A stretch of 34,768 bases of DNA. Origin: Methanoculleus sp. MH98A (GTDB lineage: Archaea; Halobacteriota; Methanomicrobia; Methanomicrobiales; Methanoculleaceae). A program made the position numbers and the translations under genes. Location of the stretch: NCBI RefSeq assembly GCF_000691865.1, contig NZ_JMIO01000001.1:1-34768 (forward strand). The letters run 5' to 3'. The first letter of the stretch is position 1, and each line of letters starts with the position of its first letter. Positions 3,348 through 34,768 of the stretch are shown here, piece by piece. The notes beneath the pieces were generated by a model, which was not told the DNA's origin, made no database searches, and was given only the letters and a program-made list of their open reading frames with translations.

Positions 3348-5240
3348 ATGAAGAAAGAACAGGCTGCACCGGTTCCGTTCCGGGGCTTCGGGCGGTTCCG
3401 GCGACCCGAAGCCGGGATCGATCCCTCCTCTGCCGGGGCAACGAGGCAGCTCGTCGACAAAATCGTCGGCAAACTCCTCTTCCTCGTCGCGCTCTTCGCG
3501 ATCATCACCGTCTTCTTCATCATCGTCTTCCTGCTCCGCGACGGATACCAGATCGTTCTCGAGACCGGCGTATGGTCATTCTTGACCGGGCCGGACTGGA
3601 ACCCGGCGGGATACAATCCGGCTTACGGCGCATTGCCGCTCATCGTCGGGACCGTCCTGGTGACGGCGCTCGCGATGGTCATCGCCGTCCCCCTCAGCAT
3701 CGGTACGGCCATCTACATCGCGGAGATCGCCGGCCCCCGGACACGGGAGGTGATCAAACCGGCCGTCGAACTGCTGGCCGGCATCCCTTCCGTCGTCTAC
3801 GGGTTCTTCGGCCTGATCCTCCTGACCGACTGGATCCGCATCGCCTTCGACCAGCCGTCGGGATCGAGCTGGCTCGCGGGCTCGATCCTCCTCGCGATCA
3901 TGGCCATCCCGACGATCACGAGCGTCGCCGAGGACGCCATCGGTTCGGTTCCCCGTGAGTTCAGGGAAGGCAGCCTCGCTCTCGGGGCGACCCACTGGCA
4001 GACGATCCGGATGGTCGTCGTGCCCGGTGCGCTCTCCGGTATCGGCGCGGCGATCATCCTCGGGATGGGGCGTGCCATCGGCGAGACGATGGCGGTGCTC
4101 ATGGTCACGGGGAACGCCGCCGTCATCCCGGACCCGATAACCGACGTCTTTTCTCCCGTGCGGACGCTGACCGGGACGCTTGGAATCGAGATGGGCGAGG
4201 TCGCGTTCGGGAGCCTGCACTACCACGCGCTCTTCGGCGTCGCGGTGGTTCTGCTCGTCATCACGCTCGTCGTCAACAGCGCGGCAAGGCTCATCGTCAG
4301 CCGGATGCAGGGGACGGCACGGCCCGGGCCGCATCGGGCGCTCACAGCGGTGGCCTCGCGCATAACCCACGCCGCATCGGCGCCGTTCGGGAGAGTCGTC
4401 CCCCCGCGGACCTCGCAGCGAGGTGCGTTTCTCCTGATGTCGCTCTCGGTCGCGATCGTGCTCGCGGCACTCGGGGTGATCCTCGCGGAGATCGTCGTCA
4501 ACGGTGCTGGGGCGATCACCTGGGAGTTCCTGACCGGGACCCCGAGCGACCTCGGGAGAGAAGGCGGGATCTTCCCCGCGATCGCCGGGACGCTCTACCT
4601 CGTGGGAGGAGCCCTCGCCATCGCCCTTCCGCTCGGGATCGCGACCGCAGTCTATCTCATCGAGTACACGGGCGACGGGCCGTTGACGCGGAGTATCCGT
4701 GCGGCGGTGGACCTGCTGAACGGGACGCCGTCCATCGTCTTCGGGCTGTTCGGGTTTGCCTTCCTCGTCCTCTTCATGGGCTTTGGGGTCTCGATGATCG
4801 CCGGGCAGATCACCCTCGGGCTGATGATTCTTCCCACAATCATACGGACGACCGAAGAGTCGCTCCGGTCGATCCCCGGCTCCCTCAGGGAAGGAAGTTA
4901 CGCTCTCGGGGCGACGAAGTGGCAGACGATCTCGCGGGTCGTCCTCCCCCCGGCGCTCCCCGGGATCCTCACCGGAGCGATCCTCTCCATCGGGCGCGCC
5001 GCAGGCGAAACGGCGCCCATCATGTTCACTGCAGTGATCTTCAGCAGCAGACACCTCCCGTCGTCGCTCACGGAGCCGGTGATGGCGCTTCCCTACCACC
5101 TCTTCATCCTCACCACGAGCGTCCCGGGGGCGTCCGCGCAGAAGTTCGGGACGGCTTTCGTGCTCCTGCTGCTGGTGCTCTCGATCTATCTCGCCGCAAT
5201 CCTCGTCCGGCGGCGATACAACCACGCGAAGGTGATGTAG
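3348..5240 (+). CDS. Fused phosphate ABC transporter permease PstC-PstA
   Basis: One uninterrupted 630-residue frame contains both permease subunits. The N-terminal half (about residues 30-325) is PstC-like, with a cytosolic lead, membrane segment [19 protein letters not shown] and the coupling-loop motif [19 protein letters not shown] hydrophilic linker rich in Arg, Ala and Pro follows (about 325-365). The C-terminal half (about 365-630) is PstA-like, with [20 protein letters not shown] as its own EAA-type coupling loop. Each half has about six membrane segments and a [10 protein letters not shown] or YNPAYGALP-type entry to the permease core. Known Pst systems use separate PstC and PstA chains that dimerise; here they would form an intramolecular pair over two PstB ATPases. 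GGAG precedes the ATG by 6 nt. pstB follows after 2 nt. No interruption is seen between the halves. Confidence 0.93.
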
Positions 5241-5242
5241 AA

Positions 5243-6004
5243 ATGGACAATTCCACAATTCTCGAGACAAGAGACCTCAACCTCTGGTACGGGCAGAAAC
5301 ACGCCCTCATCGACATCACGGTCCGCATCCCGAAGAAGACGGTCACGGCGCTCATCGGGCCGTCGGGATGCGGGAAGTCGACCCTGCTCCGGTGCTGCAA
5401 CCGGATGAACGATCTCATCGATTCGTCGAGGATCACCGGGAACGTCCTCTTCAACGGGGAAGACATCTACGACGGCCATGCGGACGCGTATGCAGTCCGC
5501 GAAAAGATCGGCATGGTCTTTCAGAAACCGAACCCCTTCCCAAAGAGCATCTACGAGAACGTCGCTTACGGCCCCCGCATTCACGGGGTGCGGGAGAAGG
5601 GTGCGCTCGACCGTATCGTCGAGGAGAGCCTGAAGGGCGCAGCGCTCTGGGACGAGGTGAAAGACCGGCTCCATGAACCGGCGCTCGCCCTCTCGGGCGG
5701 GCAGCAGCAGAGGCTCTGCATCGCACGGTCCCTCGCGGTCGAACCCGAGGTGATCCTGATGGACGAACCCTGTTCCGCCCTCGACCCCATCGCCACAGGA
5801 AAGATCGAGGACCTCATCATCCGGCTTGCCCGGAACTACACCGTCGTCATCGTCACGCACAACATGCAGCAGGCGGCGCGGGTCAGCGAATACACCGGGT
5901 TCATGTACATGGGAGAACTGATCGAGTTCGACGAAACCTCGCGGATCTTCGAAGATCCCGGCGAAGAACTGACGGAGAACTACATCACCGGACGATTCGG
6001 GTAG
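5243..6004 (+). CDS. pstB: Phosphate ABC transporter ATP-binding protein PstB
   Basis: This 253-residue ABC ATPase has all expected motifs. Walker A is GPSGCGKST near residue 37, the Q-loop is in [18 protein letters not shown], the signature is LSGGQQQR, Walker B is VILMDEP, and the switch His is in [14 protein letters not shown]. The QKPNPFP and MYMGELIE segments are typical of PstB and separate it from other importer ATPases. It should hydrolyse ATP to drive phosphate import through the fused PstCA permease. The ATG lies 2 nt after the pstCA stop, and GGTGAT at the end of pstCA serves as ribosome binding site, so the two are translationally coupled. The length matches the family. Confidence 0.96.
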
Positions 6005-29651: not shown

Positions 29652-30826
29652 GATCGCTTCTCTCCCGGGTTGCCGGGGAGGTCCGGGACCTCGCCGTCGT
29701 CGACGGCGAGACCGCGTACATCCGCGACCCGGTCTTTGGGGTTATCCGGAACCGCGTGCATGCCGAGGTCGTAAAAGCGATGCTCCGGTCGGGCGGCGAC
29801 CCTCTCGTGGGCCCGATCCTCGACTACGCCGCAGGATGCCAGAACCCGGACGGGTCCTACAACGAGGTTCACGTGAACTACAACGAGCCGTCGGCCCTGA
29901 TCACGGCGTTTATCGGCGACGCGCTCCTGGAGGCGGAGGACCGGTATCCGCACGAGGAGGCGCTCCGCAAAGCCCGGGACTATGTCCTCGCCGCCGAGAG
30001 GAGCCCGGGATGTTTCCTGAAGTCCCGGGGCTACACCGCCGACCACCTGAACGTCGACGCCTCCTGCGGGGCGTTCCTTGCCCGGTACGCGGAGCGCTAC
30101 GACGACGAGGAAGCCCGTGCGGCCGCGCTGCGGGCGGCGGAGAACGTCGTCCGCCACCAGCGCCCCGACGGCGTCTACCCCTACGCGGTCGATAAGGGGA
30201 CCTACCCTTTCGTATTCGACCTCCCCTGCGTGCACTACCAGGGGGTGACGATCTACTACCTCGCAAAGGCAAACGACGTCCTGTGCGACGAGCGGATCGA
30301 CGAAAGCATCGCAAAGGGCGTGCGATGGCTCGCGGACGCCCAGCGCCCCGACGGGCGGTTCGACTGGTCGAGAAGCGGCCTTTCGTTCGCCTACTACCTC
30401 TCCGGGGCGTACGCGTTCGCCCACGCTTCCTTTGTCTACGCCTCGCGGACGGACGACCGTTACCGGGAACACGCCGATCTCTGCCTTGGCCGGCTTGAAA
30501 AGGACGTGCGGGGGCTTGCACCCCGGTGGGAACCGGGCTCCTGGCCCGGCCTCGTCCCGTCCGTCGCCACGGCAGCGAAGACGGCGTCGCTCGGGCACTA
30601 CCCGTTACGGCACCGGGCGTTCCGGTTCGGCTACGGCATGTACCGCGAGATCGCCCGCAGGCGGTACGGCGAAACCGCAGAGACGCGGTCCTTCGAAGCC
30701 CTCTGCCGGGTGCTCGGAATCCGGTCGTCGACCGTGGAACCGTCGAATAACTTTCCCGATCTCTTCATGACCTCGGAAGTGCTCGACTGTCTCAGCCAGT
30801 CGGGAATCTGGGGGGAATCCACATGA
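29636..30826 (+). CDS. Alpha/alpha-barrel protein of unknown function in the polysaccharide operon
   Basis: The 396-residue soluble protein has no signal peptide. It carries repeated QxPDG turns: CQNPDGSYNEVHVNYNEPSA (about 68-87), HQRPDGVYPYAVD and AQRPDGRFDWSR. These resemble QW-type motifs of alpha/alpha6-barrel folds (terpenoid-cyclase-like, glycoside hydrolases, polysaccharide lyases, glucuronyl C5-epimerases). LCVHYQGVTIYYLAKAND-like helix pairs fit the same fold. In comparable loci a heparinase-like or alpha/alpha-barrel protein sits between a GT4 transferase and a two-domain oxidoreductase. It could act on the glycan as epimerase or lyase, but no catalytic set is clear. It overlaps the previous gene by 16 nt and the next by 4 nt (ATGA), so it is an integral part of the operon. 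Confidence 0.75.
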   Translation: MDGRVRSLLSRVAGEVRDLAVVDGETAYIRDPVFGVIRNRVHAEVVKAMLRSGGDPLVGPILDYAAGCQNPDGSYNEVHVNYNEPSALITAFIGDALLEAEDRYPHEEALRKARDYVLAAERSPGCFLKSRGYTADHLNVDASCGAFLARYAERYDDEEARAAALRAAENVVRHQRPDGVYPYAVDKGTYPFVFDLPCVHYQGVTIYYLAKANDVLCDERIDESIAKGVRWLADAQRPDGRFDWSRSGLSFAYYLSGAYAFAHASFVYASRTDDRYREHADLCLGRLEKDVRGLAPRWEPGSWPGLVPSVATAAKTASLGHYPLRHRAFRFGYGMYREIARRRYGETAETRSFEALCRVLGIRSSTVEPSNNFPDLFMTSEVLDCLSQSGIWGEST

Positions 30827-32970
30827 AACAGGTATTGCTCGATCTGCAGTCAGGGTCTATCCAGGTGGAGAACGTTCCCGTTCCCGCCGTAACGAGGGGG
30901 GTCGTCGTCGAGAACGCCTACTCCCTCATCAGCGCCGGCACGGAGTCGTCGCTGATCAATCTCGCACAGCAGTCGCTCGTCGGCAAGGCGAAGGCACGCC
31001 CCGACGACGTGAGAAAAGTCCTCCAGAAAGTGGGGACGGACGGCCCTCTCTCGGCCTACCGGCAGGCGATGAGCCGTCTTGCAAAACCCGAACCGCTCGG
31101 CTACAGCTGTGCGGGCACGGTGGTGACGACGGCATCCGACGAGTTCGAGGTCGGCGACCGCGTCGCCTGCGCCGGAGCAGGGTACGCGGTGCATGCCGAG
31201 TACGTCTCGGTTCCAAAGAACCTCTGCGTCAGGATCCCCGACGGTGTCGGCTTTAAGGAAGCGGCGTTCACGACCGTCGGGTCGATCGCGATGCACGGCG
31301 TCCGGAACGCCGAAGTCTCGGTGGGCGAAAACGTCGCGGTGATCGGGCTCGGGCTGATCGGGCTTCTCTCAGTGCAGATCCTCAAAGCCGCGGGGTGCCG
31401 GGTGATCGGGATCGATATCGACCCCGAAAAACTTGCGCTTGCGGCGGACCTCGGTGCGGACGTCGTCTCGAACTACGACGGCCTCTTCGAGAGGGCGCGG
31501 GGGTTATCGCCGTTCGGGGCGGACGCGGTCGTCATCACCGCAGCCACCCGGTCAAGCGCCCCAATCGAGGCCGCCGGCCGCCTGGTCAGGGATAAGGGCA
31601 GGGTCGTGGTCGTCGGGAACGTCGGCATGGACGTGCCCCGGGACGTCTTCTACGAGAAGGAGGCGGAGGTCGTCGTCTCCCGCTCCTACGGCCCCGGCCG
31701 CTACGACAGAAACTACGAGGAGCGGGGGATCGACTACCCGATCTACGTCCGGTGGACGGAGAAGAGGAACATGGAGGCGTTTCTCGAACTGGTGCGGCAG
31801 AAGAAGATTGATCTCGACCGCCTGATCACGCACACCTTCCCGCTCGACGACGCGCCGGGGGCCTACGACCTCATCAATGCCGGAAAGGAGCGGTTCATCG
31901 GGGTTCTCCTGCAGTACAGCCCGAACGGTGCGGGTGCCTCCGGCACCGTCGTCAGCCTCGCAAAGCCCGGCGGGAGGGGGCGGAAGGTCCCGGCCGCGGC
32001 CCGGTCGCTCGGGTGCATCGGCGCCGGAGTCCACGCCCAGAGCGCCCTCTATCCGCACCTCTCCGCCCTCCCGGTGAACCTCGGGGGGCTTGCGACCGCG
32101 ACGGGGCTCTCGGCGCAGACGGTCGCGAAGAAGTACGGGTTTGCCTACTGCACCACCGATTACCGCAGGATCCTCGACGACCCCGATATCGACGCGGTGA
32201 TGATCGCGACGAGAAACGACCTGCACGCGCCGATGGCGATCGAGGCGCTGCACGCCGGAAAAGACGTCTTCGTCGAAAAACCGCTTGCCACCAACATCGA
32301 CGATCTGCGACGGATCGTCGAGGCCAGAAACGAGTCCGGGCGGCGGCTGGCGGTGGGGTTCAACCGCCGCCACTCCCCGCTTGCAGTGAAGATGAAGGAG
32401 TTCTTCGCAAACCGGGCAACCCCCGCCGTCCTGCACTACCGGGTCAATGCGGGGCAGATCCCGCCCGAACACTGGGTGCACGACGACGAGCAGGGCAGCG
32501 GGATGCTGATCTCGGAGTGCTGCCACTTCATCGACTTCATGCAGTACGTCACCGGGGCACGGCCGGTCCAGGTCGTTGCCCGGGCGATCGAGCCGACCGG
32601 GACCATCCAGAAGTACGACAACTTCCAGGCGACCCTGACCTTCGACGACGGGTCGCTCGGCACCGTCACCTACACGACGCTCGGCGACCGCTCATACCCC
32701 AAAGAGACCGTCGAGGTCTTCGCCGGCAACGCTGTCGGGAGGATCACCGACTTCCGCGACCTCGAACTCCGGCGGGAGGGGAAGGCATCGAGGGAGAAGC
32801 GGTGGCTCGCCCAGGAGAAGGGGTTTGCCGAGGAACTCCTGGCGTTCGTGAAGGGTGAGGAGCCGGACTTCGCCGGCAACGTCGCGACGACGCTCGCAAC
32901 GTTCGCGGCATGGGAGTCGATCGACACCGGGGCGGCGCAGGAGATCGATCCCGGGCGGGTGGGGTTGTGA
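30823..32970 (+). CDS. Two-domain oxidoreductase: MDR alcohol dehydrogenase plus Gfo/Idh/MocA
   Basis: The 715-residue protein joins two NAD(P)-dependent enzymes. Residues about 1-370 are a medium-chain dehydrogenase (GYSCAGTVV, GDRVACAGAGYAVHAEY, VAVIGLGLIGLLSVQILKAA, GIDIDPEKLALAADLGAD). Residues about 390-715 are a Gfo/Idh/MocA dehydrogenase (LGCIGAGVHAQSALYPHL, DAVMIATRNDLHAPMAIEAL, VFVEKPLATN with the catalytic-site Lys, and HFIDFMQYVTG). Such fusions are known in polysaccharide gene clusters beside wecB/wecC and heparinase-like genes and are thought to modify a sugar, perhaps by oxidation and re-reduction. The ATG overlaps the preceding stop in ATGA. The first MDR segment lacks an obvious structural-zinc Cys cluster. 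It is the last gene of the operon. Confidence 0.88.
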   Translation: MKQVLLDLQSGSIQVENVPVPAVTRGVVVENAYSLISAGTESSLINLAQQSLVGKAKARPDDVRKVLQKVGTDGPLSAYRQAMSRLAKPEPLGYSCAGTVVTTASDEFEVGDRVACAGAGYAVHAEYVSVPKNLCVRIPDGVGFKEAAFTTVGSIAMHGVRNAEVSVGENVAVIGLGLIGLLSVQILKAAGCRVIGIDIDPEKLALAADLGADVVSNYDGLFERARGLSPFGADAVVITAATRSSAPIEAAGRLVRDKGRVVVVGNVGMDVPRDVFYEKEAEVVVSRSYGPGRYDRNYEERGIDYPIYVRWTEKRNMEAFLELVRQKKIDLDRLITHTFPLDDAPGAYDLINAGKERFIGVLLQYSPNGAGASGTVVSLAKPGGRGRKVPAAARSLGCIGAGVHAQSALYPHLSALPVNLGGLATATGLSAQTVAKKYGFAYCTTDYRRILDDPDIDAVMIATRNDLHAPMAIEALHAGKDVFVEKPLATNIDDLRRIVEARNESGRRLAVGFNRRHSPLAVKMKEFFANRATPAVLHYRVNAGQIPPEHWVHDDEQGSGMLISECCHFIDFMQYVTGARPVQVVARAIEPTGTIQKYDNFQATLTFDDGSLGTVTYTTLGDRSYPKETVEVFAGNAVGRITDFRDLELRREGKASREKRWLAQEKGFAEELLAFVKGEEPDFAGNVATTLATFAAWESIDTGAAQEIDPGRVGL

Positions 32971-33086
32971 TACGTTCCGGGTGCTGAGGGTGGGGCTGAT
33001 CATTTGCTACTGTCTCAGTCGCGTATGGCTCCGGCGGTAGCCTCTAATCCTCTCTCCACCGCGTAAAGGGATATCTATAGCCCCCA

Positions 33087-33683
33087 CTCGAAGACCTACG
33101 GTCTTCTCAAGCTCCGGACGTTCCGTCCGTCGCACCCCGCCCACAAGGGGCAGGGGCAGTCATGGCGATAAGCGATGGTTCGGAGAACCGGAGCTAGAGC
33201 ACCGAAGAACGACGTTCCTTCAGGATGCGACGGTTCGTCAGAATCGGAGCTGGAGAAACCCGGAAGGGTTTCGGGAACGGAGTTTAAGCACCGGAGGTGC
33301 GAAGGTGCGAAGCCGGGGGGAAAAGCCGTGCACGGTTCTTTTCCAGAGTCTCCTCGTATAGTGGACCGTGGGGACTACGCACCTTCGGTGCTCGTGCTCC
33401 TGCCCCCGCACCTTGCGGTGCTCAAACTCCGTTCCGGAGGAACGTCGCACCTTCGGCCAGTCGCATATCGCCATGGGGGAGGGGCCGACGGGGAGTGCGA
33501 TGGTTCGTAGAACCGGAGCTCGACCACCGTCAGGTGGGGAGTGCGATGGTTCGTAGAACCGGAGCTCGACCACCGTCAGGTGGGGAGTGCGATGGTTCGT
33601 AGAACCGGAGCTCGACCACCGTCAGGTGGGGAGTGCGAGCGAAGCGAGCTTGAGCACCGGAGGTGCGAAGGGGGCACGCCCCC
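33087..33683. repeat. Island of interspersed palindromic repeat units with paired mini-hairpins
   Basis: Units of about 45-50 bp share the layout TGCGA, hairpin 1, GGAGYTNGAG, hairpin 2, in both orientations. Clear units are 33087-33134 (-), 33172-33225 (+, partly decayed), 33226-33275 (+), the exact tandem copies from 33495 (+) and 33406-33449 (-). Hairpin 1 reads GGTTC-GTA-GAACC, GGTTC-GGA-GAACC, GGACG-GAA-CGTCC or GTTCC-TCC-GGAAC in different units; hairpin 2 reads CCACC-GTCA-GGTGG, GAAACCC-GGAA-GGGTTTC, AAGACC-GTA-GGTCTT or GCACC-GGA-GGTGC. Pairing is kept while bases change. Extra hairpins flank it, for example GGGGG-CACG-CCCCC at 33670-33683. The 46-bp period is not a multiple of three, so it is not coding. 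The rest of the gap (32971-33086 and 33684-33856) shows no gene. Confidence 0.85.
33495..33632 (+). repeat. Three perfect tandem copies of a 46-bp repeat
   Basis: The 46-bp unit starts at 33495, 33541 and 33587, each beginning GTGCGATGGTTCGTAGAACC and ending CCACCGTCAGGTGGGGA. A fourth start (GTGCGAGCGAAG) at 33633 diverges at once. Exact identity suggests a recent duplication. Confidence 0.95.
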
Positions 33684-33856
33684 TCCCCTGTCTCTGCTCC
33701 GTCGCGAACATCTGTAGTTCCCCCATACCCACAGGTCGTGAAACCCCGGTGCGACGCTCCACTAACGGGTTCTCATGCTCTCGCTCCTTTGAAACATCGC
33801 GCCCACAAAAAACGCCCGGGAGACCCTGGCGCCGGACGGCGGGCTCACAATCGATG

Positions 33857-33863
33857 AAAAAAA
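33857..33863 (-). terminator. T7 terminator after the radical SAM gene
   Basis: Seven T on the minus strand begin 5 nt after the TAA of the RaSEA-like gene. Confidence 0.6.
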
Positions 33864-33867
33864 GCGT

Positions 33868-34768
33868 TTACGAAGAAGAAAGCTGGGTACTTCGGATATA
33901 CGCCAGCTGCTCACGGATCCGCTCCGGGATCGTGCGGGAATCTTCTGCCGTAACGGCCTCCTTCCACTCCTCCCGGCACGGGCCGTCCAGTCCGTCGAAC
34001 TCTGTCGTGTCGAAACGGGAGTTGTATCGCTGGATCGCCCCGGTGATCTCGGCATCGCACTTTCCGCAGTTCCGGGCCCAGTCGAGCGACTCGACCGAGT
34101 AATTCCAGGGGCTGACGTAGACGTGGGCACGATCCCCGAACCGCTCCCGGCACTGCTGCAGGAGTTCGACGAGCGTCCAGAGCCACGGCGGGCGGTAGAG
34201 GTCGTTCTTCCAGAGTTCGTGCACGACGGTGTTCTTCTCGACCGTCGTCACCTCGAGGTCGACGTAGTCGATCCCGCGGGAGATACAGTAGGAGATGGTC
34301 TGCAGGATATCGTCTATCGCTTCTCCTTCGGTGAGAAACGGCGGTTTTACGAGGAGGAGCGGTTTTGTCAGCACGCCCATCCCCTGCATCCTCGAATGGA
34401 AGTGATCGAAGTTGTTCGCTGAGAACCCCTTGTTGATGCAGAGGTTCATCACCTGCGAGTTTGCGGACTCGAACCCGAACGCCACCTCGAGCTGCCGCCC
34501 GTTCAAGGCTTTCTTCATCTTTGCCACGTGCTCGTCGGGGGAATAATCGATCCTCGACTCGACGACCACCTTCTTGATGTTTTTGTAGCCGTCGATGTAC
34601 GAGCAGATCTTCTCGATGGCGGCAACCGGCATCTCGCGTTCGTTAAAGATATTGCCGTCGTTGTATATCGAGACGATCGGGTAATCCCCGAGATCGACGG
34701 CGTCCATCACGTATTCGAACTGCGCGATGTATTCGTCCGCCGACACCTCCCTGCCCCGGGACGTTGCA
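33868..34768 (-). CDS. RaSEA-like radical SAM protein, 5' end outside window
   Basis: The frame is open to the right window edge. A GTG at 34744-34746 could be mistaken for the start, but in-frame codons continue upstream (ATSRGREVSADEY). The CxxxCxxC iron-sulfur motif is not visible and should lie just beyond the edge. The visible 300 residues include VVVESRIDYSPDE, LEVAFGFESANSQVMNLCIN, LLLVKPPFLTEGEAIDDILQ and ELWKNDLYRPPWLWTLVELL. These match the ELP3-like TIGR01210 family that contains RaSEA, which with ArcS converts preQ0-lysine tRNA to archaeosine at G15. The C-terminal CGKCDAEITGAIQRYN looks like the usual Cys pair. RaSEA is the best guess; a paralogue cannot be ruled out from the visible part. 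Confidence 0.72.
   Translation of the reverse strand, partial: ATSRGREVSADEYIAQFEYVMDAVDLGDYPIVSIYNDGNIFNEREMPVAAIEKICSYIDGYKNIKKVVVESRIDYSPDEHVAKMKKALNGRQLEVAFGFESANSQVMNLCINKGFSANNFDHFHSRMQGMGVLTKPLLLVKPPFLTEGEAIDDILQTISYCISRGIDYVDLEVTTVEKNTVVHELWKNDLYRPPWLWTLVELLQQCRERFGDRAHVYVSPWNYSVESLDWARNCGKCDAEITGAIQRYNSRFDTTEFDGLDGPCREEWKEAVTAEDSRTIPERIREQLAYIRSTQLSSS

Follow-up and report, generated by a model that had tools for sequence, protein, structure and literature searches.

Near one contig end of the draft genome of Methanoculleus sp. MH98A (2.54 Mb in 306 contigs), a cluster of short palindromic repeats lies between two convergent genes. The window analysed here is the whole 34,768-nt stretch that contains it. 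A preliminary description, made from the window alone, had noted that the stems of these repeats differ in sequence while remaining paired, and had proposed a folded RNA, a cruciform or a family of mobile mini-elements. The locus raises the question of what is kept in these repeats, a sequence, an RNA fold or a DNA fold, and of how they came to lie where they do.

The hairpin island and its neighbouring genes

The features of the locus are as follows (window coordinates, strand).

30823–32970, plus: upstream gene with a zinc dehydrogenase domain and a GFO/IDH/MocA oxidoreductase domain, converging on the island
33087–33688, no strand assigned: the entire island of hairpins, together with the G-rich host motif in its two parts
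33090–33106, minus: H2-type hairpin GAAGACC-gta-GGTCTTC
33115–33129, minus: H1-type hairpin CGGACG-gaa-CGTCCG, boxes TGCGA / GGAGCTTGA
33176–33190, plus: H1-type hairpin TGGTTC-gga-GAACCG, first pair T-G
33231–33246, plus: H1-type hairpin CGGTTC-gtca-GAATCG, one mismatch
33255–33272, plus: H2-type hairpin GAAACCC-ggaa-GGGTTTC, GNRA loop, GG after the stem
33396–33465, minus: host hairpin TGC-GA-CTGGCC-GAA-(module)-GGGCAG-GA-GCA, split by the module
33404–33449, minus: 46-nt two-hairpin module in the loop of the host hairpin, absent at the same place in the relative L176
33430–33444 and 33408–33421, minus: H1 (loop TCC) and H2 hairpins of that module
33475–33495, plus: left part of the rPQS G-quadruplex motif, GGGGGAGGGG CCGAC GGGGAG (host element F1)
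33496–33541, plus: tandem unit 1, H1 at 33501–33515 and H2 at 33524–33537
33542–33587, plus: tandem unit 2, H1 at 33547–33561 and H2 at 33570–33583
33588–33633, plus: tandem unit 3, H1 at 33593–33607 and H2 at 33616–33629
33634–33669, plus: module with first hairpin GCGAAGC (33639–33645) and second hairpin GCACC-gga-GGTGC (33654–33666)
33670–33688, plus: right part of the rPQS with its C-rich partner (GGGGG..CCCCCTCCCC)
33868–34746, minus: downstream gene, converging, no Pfam match at 0.001; it may extend past the window

Inspection of the hairpin listing of the window gave 15 hairpins within 33090–33666, 11 on the plus and four on the minus strand, in agreement with the earlier account of paired mini-hairpins in both orientations with shared boxes. 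Their stems were GGTTC/GAACC, GGACG/CGTCC, GTTCC/GGAAC, CCACC/GGTGG, GAAGACC/GGTCTTC and GAAACCC/GGGTTTC, or close variants. Ten hairpins were capped by GA on both sides and five by GA before and GG after the stem; the loop was GNA in eight, GNYA in four, GNRA in two and of another type in one, which leaves five of the 15 without the right-hand GA and three without a GNA or GNYA loop. From three 57-nt matches at a spacing of 46, three exact tandem copies of 46 nt were obtained at 33496–33633. The GA caps, the GNA loops and the split G-rich motif (33475–33495 and 33670–33688), which encloses the right half of the island, were features beyond those initially described.

In the accessible text of PMC4686876, DNA minihairpins with a GNA or GNNA loop and at least two G-C pairs are described as extraordinarily stable and nuclease-resistant, GCGAAGC melting at 78 °C. 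The window hairpin at 33639–33645 reads literally GCGAAGC. As single strands, the island (33087–33683) gave an RNA fold z of −8.5, and the part at 33490–33683 gave a DNA fold z of −3.1, with 2 of 200 shuffles folding equally well.

Hairpin grammar, covariation and range of the family

The hairpins followed a common grammar, GA, stem, GNA or GNYA loop, complementary stem and GA, which holds as a tendency. Two such foldbacks made up a module of ∼40–46 nt (box-GA-stem1-GNA-stem1'-GA-box'-GA-stem2-GNA/GNYA-stem2'-GA). In a set of triloop hairpins from 856 kb of loci of named genomes (stems of at least 4, both strands read, 9936 distinct entries), GA stood on both sides of 296 entries, compared with 44 for the median flank combination, and 207 of these 296 had GNA loops. 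Perfect stems of 5, 6, 7 and 8 bp were found in 19, 51, 15 and 3 GA-capped hairpins with GNA or GNYA loops (8157 candidates); the corresponding counts for AG/AG-flanked control hairpins with ANG-type loops were 0, 0, 0 and 1 (3783 candidates). For 6 bp this corresponds to 51 of 2087 candidates against 0 of 1294.

For the pairing analysis, H1 inserts were chosen by their flanking boxes and not by pairing, from loci of the source genome and its relatives, and the 15-mer class was used, which comprised 44 of the 89 distinct inserts. Watson-Crick pairs occupied 233 of 264 cells, whereas 500 arm shuffles gave a mean of 146 and a maximum of 168; 20 of the 44 stems were perfect. In the 16-nt class (15 rows), 76 of 90 cells were Watson-Crick, with a shuffle mean of 60.1 and maximum of 72. 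By the formal count on the 44 sequences, standard pairs reached 95.1% versus 66.8% in shuffles, cells changed on both sides numbered 62 versus 18.8, and the covariation was 0.736 versus 0.247, none of the 500 shuffles being as high on any of the three. Two measures were not clearly above shuffles, namely pairs with two-sided change (401 of 500 as high) and pair types (43 of 500), and the box fixes the 3' letter of the first stem pair. Covariation in slid controls was at most 0.143; these controls are the safer ones, because shuffles leave the relatedness of the copies in. The structure-conserving substitution that had been claimed from several units in the window was thereby supported across copies.

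The pairing extended beyond the GA caps. The outer flanks of H1 were AAC/GTT in 37 cases, TGC/GCA in 20, AGC/GCT in 10 and CGC/GCG in 5, and TGC/GCT, leaving a T-T, in 36. Outer position 2 was paired in 125 of 149 cases versus a shuffle maximum of 87, and position 3 in 84 versus 66; for H2, only the first outer position exceeded shuffles. Since the outer flanks pair and covary, H1 can be described as two helices, outer and inner, joined by a tandem GA/GA step and closed by a GNA loop. The conserved bases that it leaves unpaired match those that would enter sheared G-A pairs. A kink-turn, which includes a three-base bulge, was considered for the GA tandem and dropped, as that bulge is absent.

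Among 466 GNA hairpins, a set that includes chance hairpins, 200 different stems were counted, besides the 44 distinct H1 15-mers. Many matches share descent; one stem, GCACC, was carried by 34 of the 63 hairpins whose loop was GTCA or GTTA. As a separate observation, five arrays of near-homogeneous stem were seen on contig C1 of G034, the closest relative searched, at 211566–212069, 307428–307686, 1229463–1229760, 1429853–1430435 and 1923558–1923991, with periods of ∼68, 46, 44, 46 and 45, respectively. A hybrid hairpin CGTTCC..GGACCG with one mismatched pair occurred three times in the fourth of them.

Copies were then counted by motif. In the source genome, TGCGA-N8..22-GGAGYTNGA (H1) was matched 60 times versus 11 for the reversed-pattern control, GGAGYTNGA-N6..24-TGCGA 67 times versus 13, and the H2 motif GAGCACCGNAGGTGCGA 58 times versus 0. 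The H2 motif was scanned in 232 genomes of one order, 35 of Methanoculleus and 197 others, and was found in 31, comprising 28 of the 35 and 3 of the 197; the reversed control gave 0 among the genomes listed. At least 10 copies were present in 21 of the 35 Methanoculleus genomes, with a maximum of 74, while the three genomes outside the genus had 3, 4 and 1, the one with four being a 71% complete draft. The motif was absent from 7 of the 35, one of them 99% and six 80–88% complete. Beyond the order, the scope was a scan of named genomes and one of viral contigs. A fuller form of the repeat gave at least 114 stretches in the named genomes; among the 80 matches listed, 60 carried titles of Methanoculleus, 15 of unclassified Euryarchaeota, 4 of Methanomicrobiales and 1 of Lokiarchaeota, and this last locus (L137) was excluded from the statistics. 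These results demonstrated that the family is real and, among the genomes searched, concentrated in Methanoculleus. Among 2.9 million viral contigs, 17 (L250–L266) had one exact 17-base H2 match each, as a raw count.

Modules within host hairpins and turnover between relatives

The module at 33404–33449 lies in the loop of another hairpin, and the same arrangement was found elsewhere. The host GCGA-CTGGCC-GNA-GGGCAG-GAGC and its close variants were present at 31 distinct sites, 20 of them empty (at most one extra base) and 11 filled, with fillings of 45, 45, 46 (six times), 51, 91 and 92 nt between the loop and the 3' arm, lengths near one or two modules. Of 70 rPQS host sites, 35 were empty and 35 carried a filling at one point, 32 of these fillings starting with TGCGA; many of the loci behind these sites had been chosen for carrying the repeat. 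With that qualification, half of the sampled sites of a published G-quadruplex motif are interrupted. The window copy, whose loop CCGAC is one base off the published CTGAC, is split by 174 nt.

Because the filled and empty patterns for the CTGGCC and rPQS hosts need intact halves, they fix the insertion point that they report; it was left free when all split points of five hosts were scanned. For CTGGCC, gains of 46 and 91 nt piled up at the loop, and split points in its stem gave counts of up to 17, mostly for other lengths and scattered. For TGGGCG, gains of 44–46 and 90 nt were centred on the loop, with adjacent placements arising from a short direct repeat, and for the rPQS they centred on CTGAC|GGGGAG. 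No clear peak was obtained for GGTTC (2–10 everywhere), and H2 GCACC gave a weak one, 45–49 at the loop and up to 40 elsewhere. Modules thus sit as units in three of the hosts, in two hairpins at the loop and in the rPQS at a single position.

Direct repeats were uneven. Three strict rPQS cases had 40–41 nt inserted between two copies of GGGGAG, whereas CTGGCC showed only about three ambiguous bases. A general target-site duplication, six bases long in the rPQS, suggested in TGGGCG and missing in CTGGCC, is not claimed. That the centre of a module is always reverse-complementary to its target was also considered, and was abandoned because only some inserts conformed.

Nesting reached three to four levels in L149 and L012; the nest search returned 79 matches, many of them chance in coding DNA, and about ten nests were read by eye. 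In L144, one module occupied the loop of its own kind, and left halves (3–4) outnumbered right halves (2), which implies that slippage also acts. Another host repeat, CGCGAAG|AACGCGAAG (CACGCGAAGCCGCGAAG-AACGCGAAG; in L153 and other loci), carried hairpin modules in several of 59 pattern matches, many of the 59 being chance matches in coding DNA.

The gap itself was compared between relatives. The neighbouring gene was found in 31 of the 35 Methanoculleus genomes including the source, with 84–97% identity in the others; 30 of its loci were fetched, 11 relatives and the window's own locus were laid out, and ten relatives were read (L185, with a different order, was not among these ten). The ten had 90–97% gene identity, yet each gap was different, ranging from a rich island to other DNA. 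The right part of the window island was common to L176, whose neighbouring gene is 97% identical. Compared with L176, the window had the extra 46 nt at 33404–33449 inside the loop of the host hairpin, with the placement ambiguous by a few bases, and three tandem 46-mers versus one. Among the 30 loci the host hairpin was found at this place only in the window locus (L175) and L176, so gain and loss of the module are indistinguishable.

Comparison of other loci with G034 gave 45 rows, partly overlapping, in which adjacent alignment blocks were separated by gaps of different size; 12 of the rows were inspected for presence and absence between species. Larger islands differed, with 234 bases in L153 and 475 in L091 versus nothing, at A or T runs. 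In addition, larger species-specific inserts in L023, L091 and L087 ended like GGCTCTGTTGAA / TTCAACAGAGCC, as if some islands sat in a bigger element with inverted ends. An insertion-sequence-like insert of ∼845 bases was seen in G034 in a gap where L132 has none (L231 versus L132).

With 60 H1 and 58 H2 motif matches, presence and absence at the same place and modules lying in loops, the third of the initial proposals, a family of mini-elements, is supported. We consider it probable that the island consists of miniature, non-autonomous DNA hairpin modules which spread as folded single-stranded DNA and take loops as their preferred target. Movement as folded DNA is our best reading, and it draws mostly on the covariation, the loops and the nesting.

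Part of this evidence could also come about without transposition, if DNA palindromes were held in register through hairpin-mediated template switching, one arm serving as template for the other, with slippage, recombination and inter-island gene conversion accounting for their local spread. Single mismatches inside the stem were G-T in 24 and A-C in 25 cases, an equality compatible with arm copying and with selection alike. In G034, tandem arrays whose stems are homogenised occur commonly, the TGCGA or GGTGCG boxes common to module ends could be used by recombination, and the GGTTC and H2 hosts showed no clear loop preference. However, no TGCGA box is present in the empty loops, so that modules seem to have required insertion to get in at first; from island to island, one and the same host loop is occupied by different modules; and arm copying leaves the conservation of loops and GA caps amid stem change unexplained. 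We regard this explanation as rather unlikely.

Siting, nature of the fold and comparison with known systems

By a simple, non-standard gene caller of our own, 226 hairpins lay between called genes and 36 inside called ORFs. Of the 34 hairpins with stems of at least 5 in ORFs, 24 were in the outer fifths and 10 further inside. Hairpins were present in 34 of 70 convergent, 26 of 207 tandem and 4 of 80 divergent gaps of the genus sample; these fractions are inflated, because the loci were fetched for holding a copy, and the contrast between gap types should be less affected. The position between convergent genes, remarked on for this island at the outset, therefore holds in the genus sample. A similar bias applies to the G-rich host motif, about half of the rPQS being tail to tail in the accessible text of PMC8044849, which mentions termination.

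Such siting would be expected if the hairpins were selected RNA structures, terminating transcription in both directions or protecting 3' ends where genes converge, in line with the block to read-through first suggested for the island. It fits avoidance of promoters too, however. In tandem gaps, hairpin orientation relative to the genes was 36:31, which shows no preference, and the ten relatives with 90–97% gene identity all had different gaps, some without an island. Few loops were GNRA, and the H2 motif was absent from seven of the 35 Methanoculleus genomes. A role as terminators is in our judgement quite unlikely.

The loops bear on the nature of the fold more generally. GNRA tetraloops are what RNA would be expected to favour. 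GA-capped hairpins had 60 GNYA, 12 GNRA and 55 other tetraloops, whereas elsewhere GNYA numbered 244 and GNRA 342 (Fisher p ∼1e-11, the copies being related by descent). On the strand level, plus-strand hairpins numbered 35 of 80 and 38 of 81 in two 400-kb stretches of G034, indicating no bias. The wobble test was mixed. Over all positions G-T mismatches outnumbered A-C (62 versus 39), and the excess lay mostly at the first pair (28 versus 8), whose 3' G belongs to the box; inside the stems an RNA wobble signature was absent. Loop types and the lack of orientation preference favour folded DNA over RNA, short of proof. Of the initial alternative between folded RNA and cruciform, conservation of a fold was upheld and the choice was narrowed towards DNA.

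Known RNA families were rejected. No Rfam family exceeded its threshold in 32000–34768 (best E of 0.048, 20.1 bits against a cut-off of 153.8), and eight island loci gave nothing above threshold beyond two tRNAs and one ribosomal leader. An L4-Archaeoglobi ribosomal leader (RF03135) was matched above threshold in L144 at 5176–5254. A structured non-coding RNA family encoded in the islands would account for the strong covariation, the RNA fold z and the G-T excess at the first stem pair, but with these Rfam results, tetraloops of GNYA rather than GNRA type, and nesting and turnover too fast for one defined RNA, it is very improbable.

Candidate movers were searched for by Pfam family. PF01797 (Y1_Tnp, RAYT) had no match in the source genome, which is 96% complete so that a missed gene is possible. 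Matches were found in 7 of the 35 Methanoculleus genomes, mostly repeat-poor, one of the seven being under the cut-off; among the 21 genomes with at least 10 H2 copies, one match was over and one under the cut-off, and 19 had none. Membership in a REP/RAYT system was rejected on these grounds. RVT_1 (reverse transcriptase) had no match in the source genome, on which retro-mobility was rejected, and occurred in 3 of the 35 genomes, two of them repeat-rich. As a side observation, a genome without the H2 motif (G132) had 19 Y1_Tnp matches, several of them broken.

If modules do move as folded DNA, they would spread as single strands, with exposed loops of resident hairpins as the preferred target, and joining might be carried out by an enzyme acting in trans or by the replication machinery. 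What is copied and kept would be the fold, so stems could drift as long as they remain paired, while GA caps and GNA loops could not. Tandem arrays may arise by slippage between TGCGA boxes, and islands would accumulate where genes converge, since an insertion at such a place damages no promoter. A more specific version, in which a self-nesting DNA element targets shape and not sequence, its mover belongs neither to the Y1 transposases nor to the reverse transcriptases and the fold is what is inherited, is possible but doubtful. If the reading of movement as folded DNA is true, the family offers a test case for shape-guided movement, and units placed inside one another's loops, at increments of roughly one module, would be a natural record of DNA folding back on itself in living cells. 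It also suggests a cause for the fast divergence of the studied intergenic region between close species.

A literature search of titles and the beginnings of abstracts, with subscription papers mostly outside it and supplements excluded, returned no paper on the hairpin modules, and the accessible text of an inverted-repeat survey (PMC13155455) had no word beginning with Methano. The preliminary remark that no named family matches holds for the modules as far as the search went and fails for the G-rich host. The latter is the rPQS of Methanomicrobiaceae (GGGG..GGGG-CTGAC-GGGGA-GGGG with a C-rich partner; PMC8044849). Four G runs, a CTGAC-type loop and a 3' C3TC3 belong to the host only; the rPQS is what the modules interrupt, and its splitting by hairpin modules goes unmentioned in the accessible part of that paper. 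The arrays may be the Methanoculleus marisnigri satellites Fam_48_45_4 and Fam_102_51_3, which are 45- and 51-nt tandem repeats of the same genus listed in PMC6749651, in its accessible part without structure or mobility.

In the accessible text of PMC3116915, REP/REPIN sequences with their RAYTs are likewise short, intergenic, dispersed and hairpin-forming, with compensatory changes in part of the hairpin. Extragenic hairpins with compensatory changes are found here as well (226 between genes, 36 inside). In REP/REPIN the REP word is conserved and the RAYT is the presumed mover, whereas in the Methanoculleus modules the stem sequence varies and caps and loops are kept; instead of inverted doublets, the two hairpins of a module are of different kinds in direct order. 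Also comparable are the mitochondrial DHE and sponge RHE elements, described in the accessible parts of PMC10085805 and PMC2800124 as short, mostly intergenic hairpins, two per DHE unit, that are thought to be mobile. The Methanoculleus modules resemble them, by description only, in the two-hairpin unit, the intergenic position and apparent signs of mobility, and differ in lying on an archaeal chromosome rather than in mitochondrial DNA and in nesting into loops. The sponge elements keep their stems and vary their loops. Among the mobile hairpins compared here, in which stems or REP words are conserved, the Methanoculleus modules would be miniature mobile hairpins of a variant of their own, with the fold, caps and loops kept, the stem free and units nested within one another.
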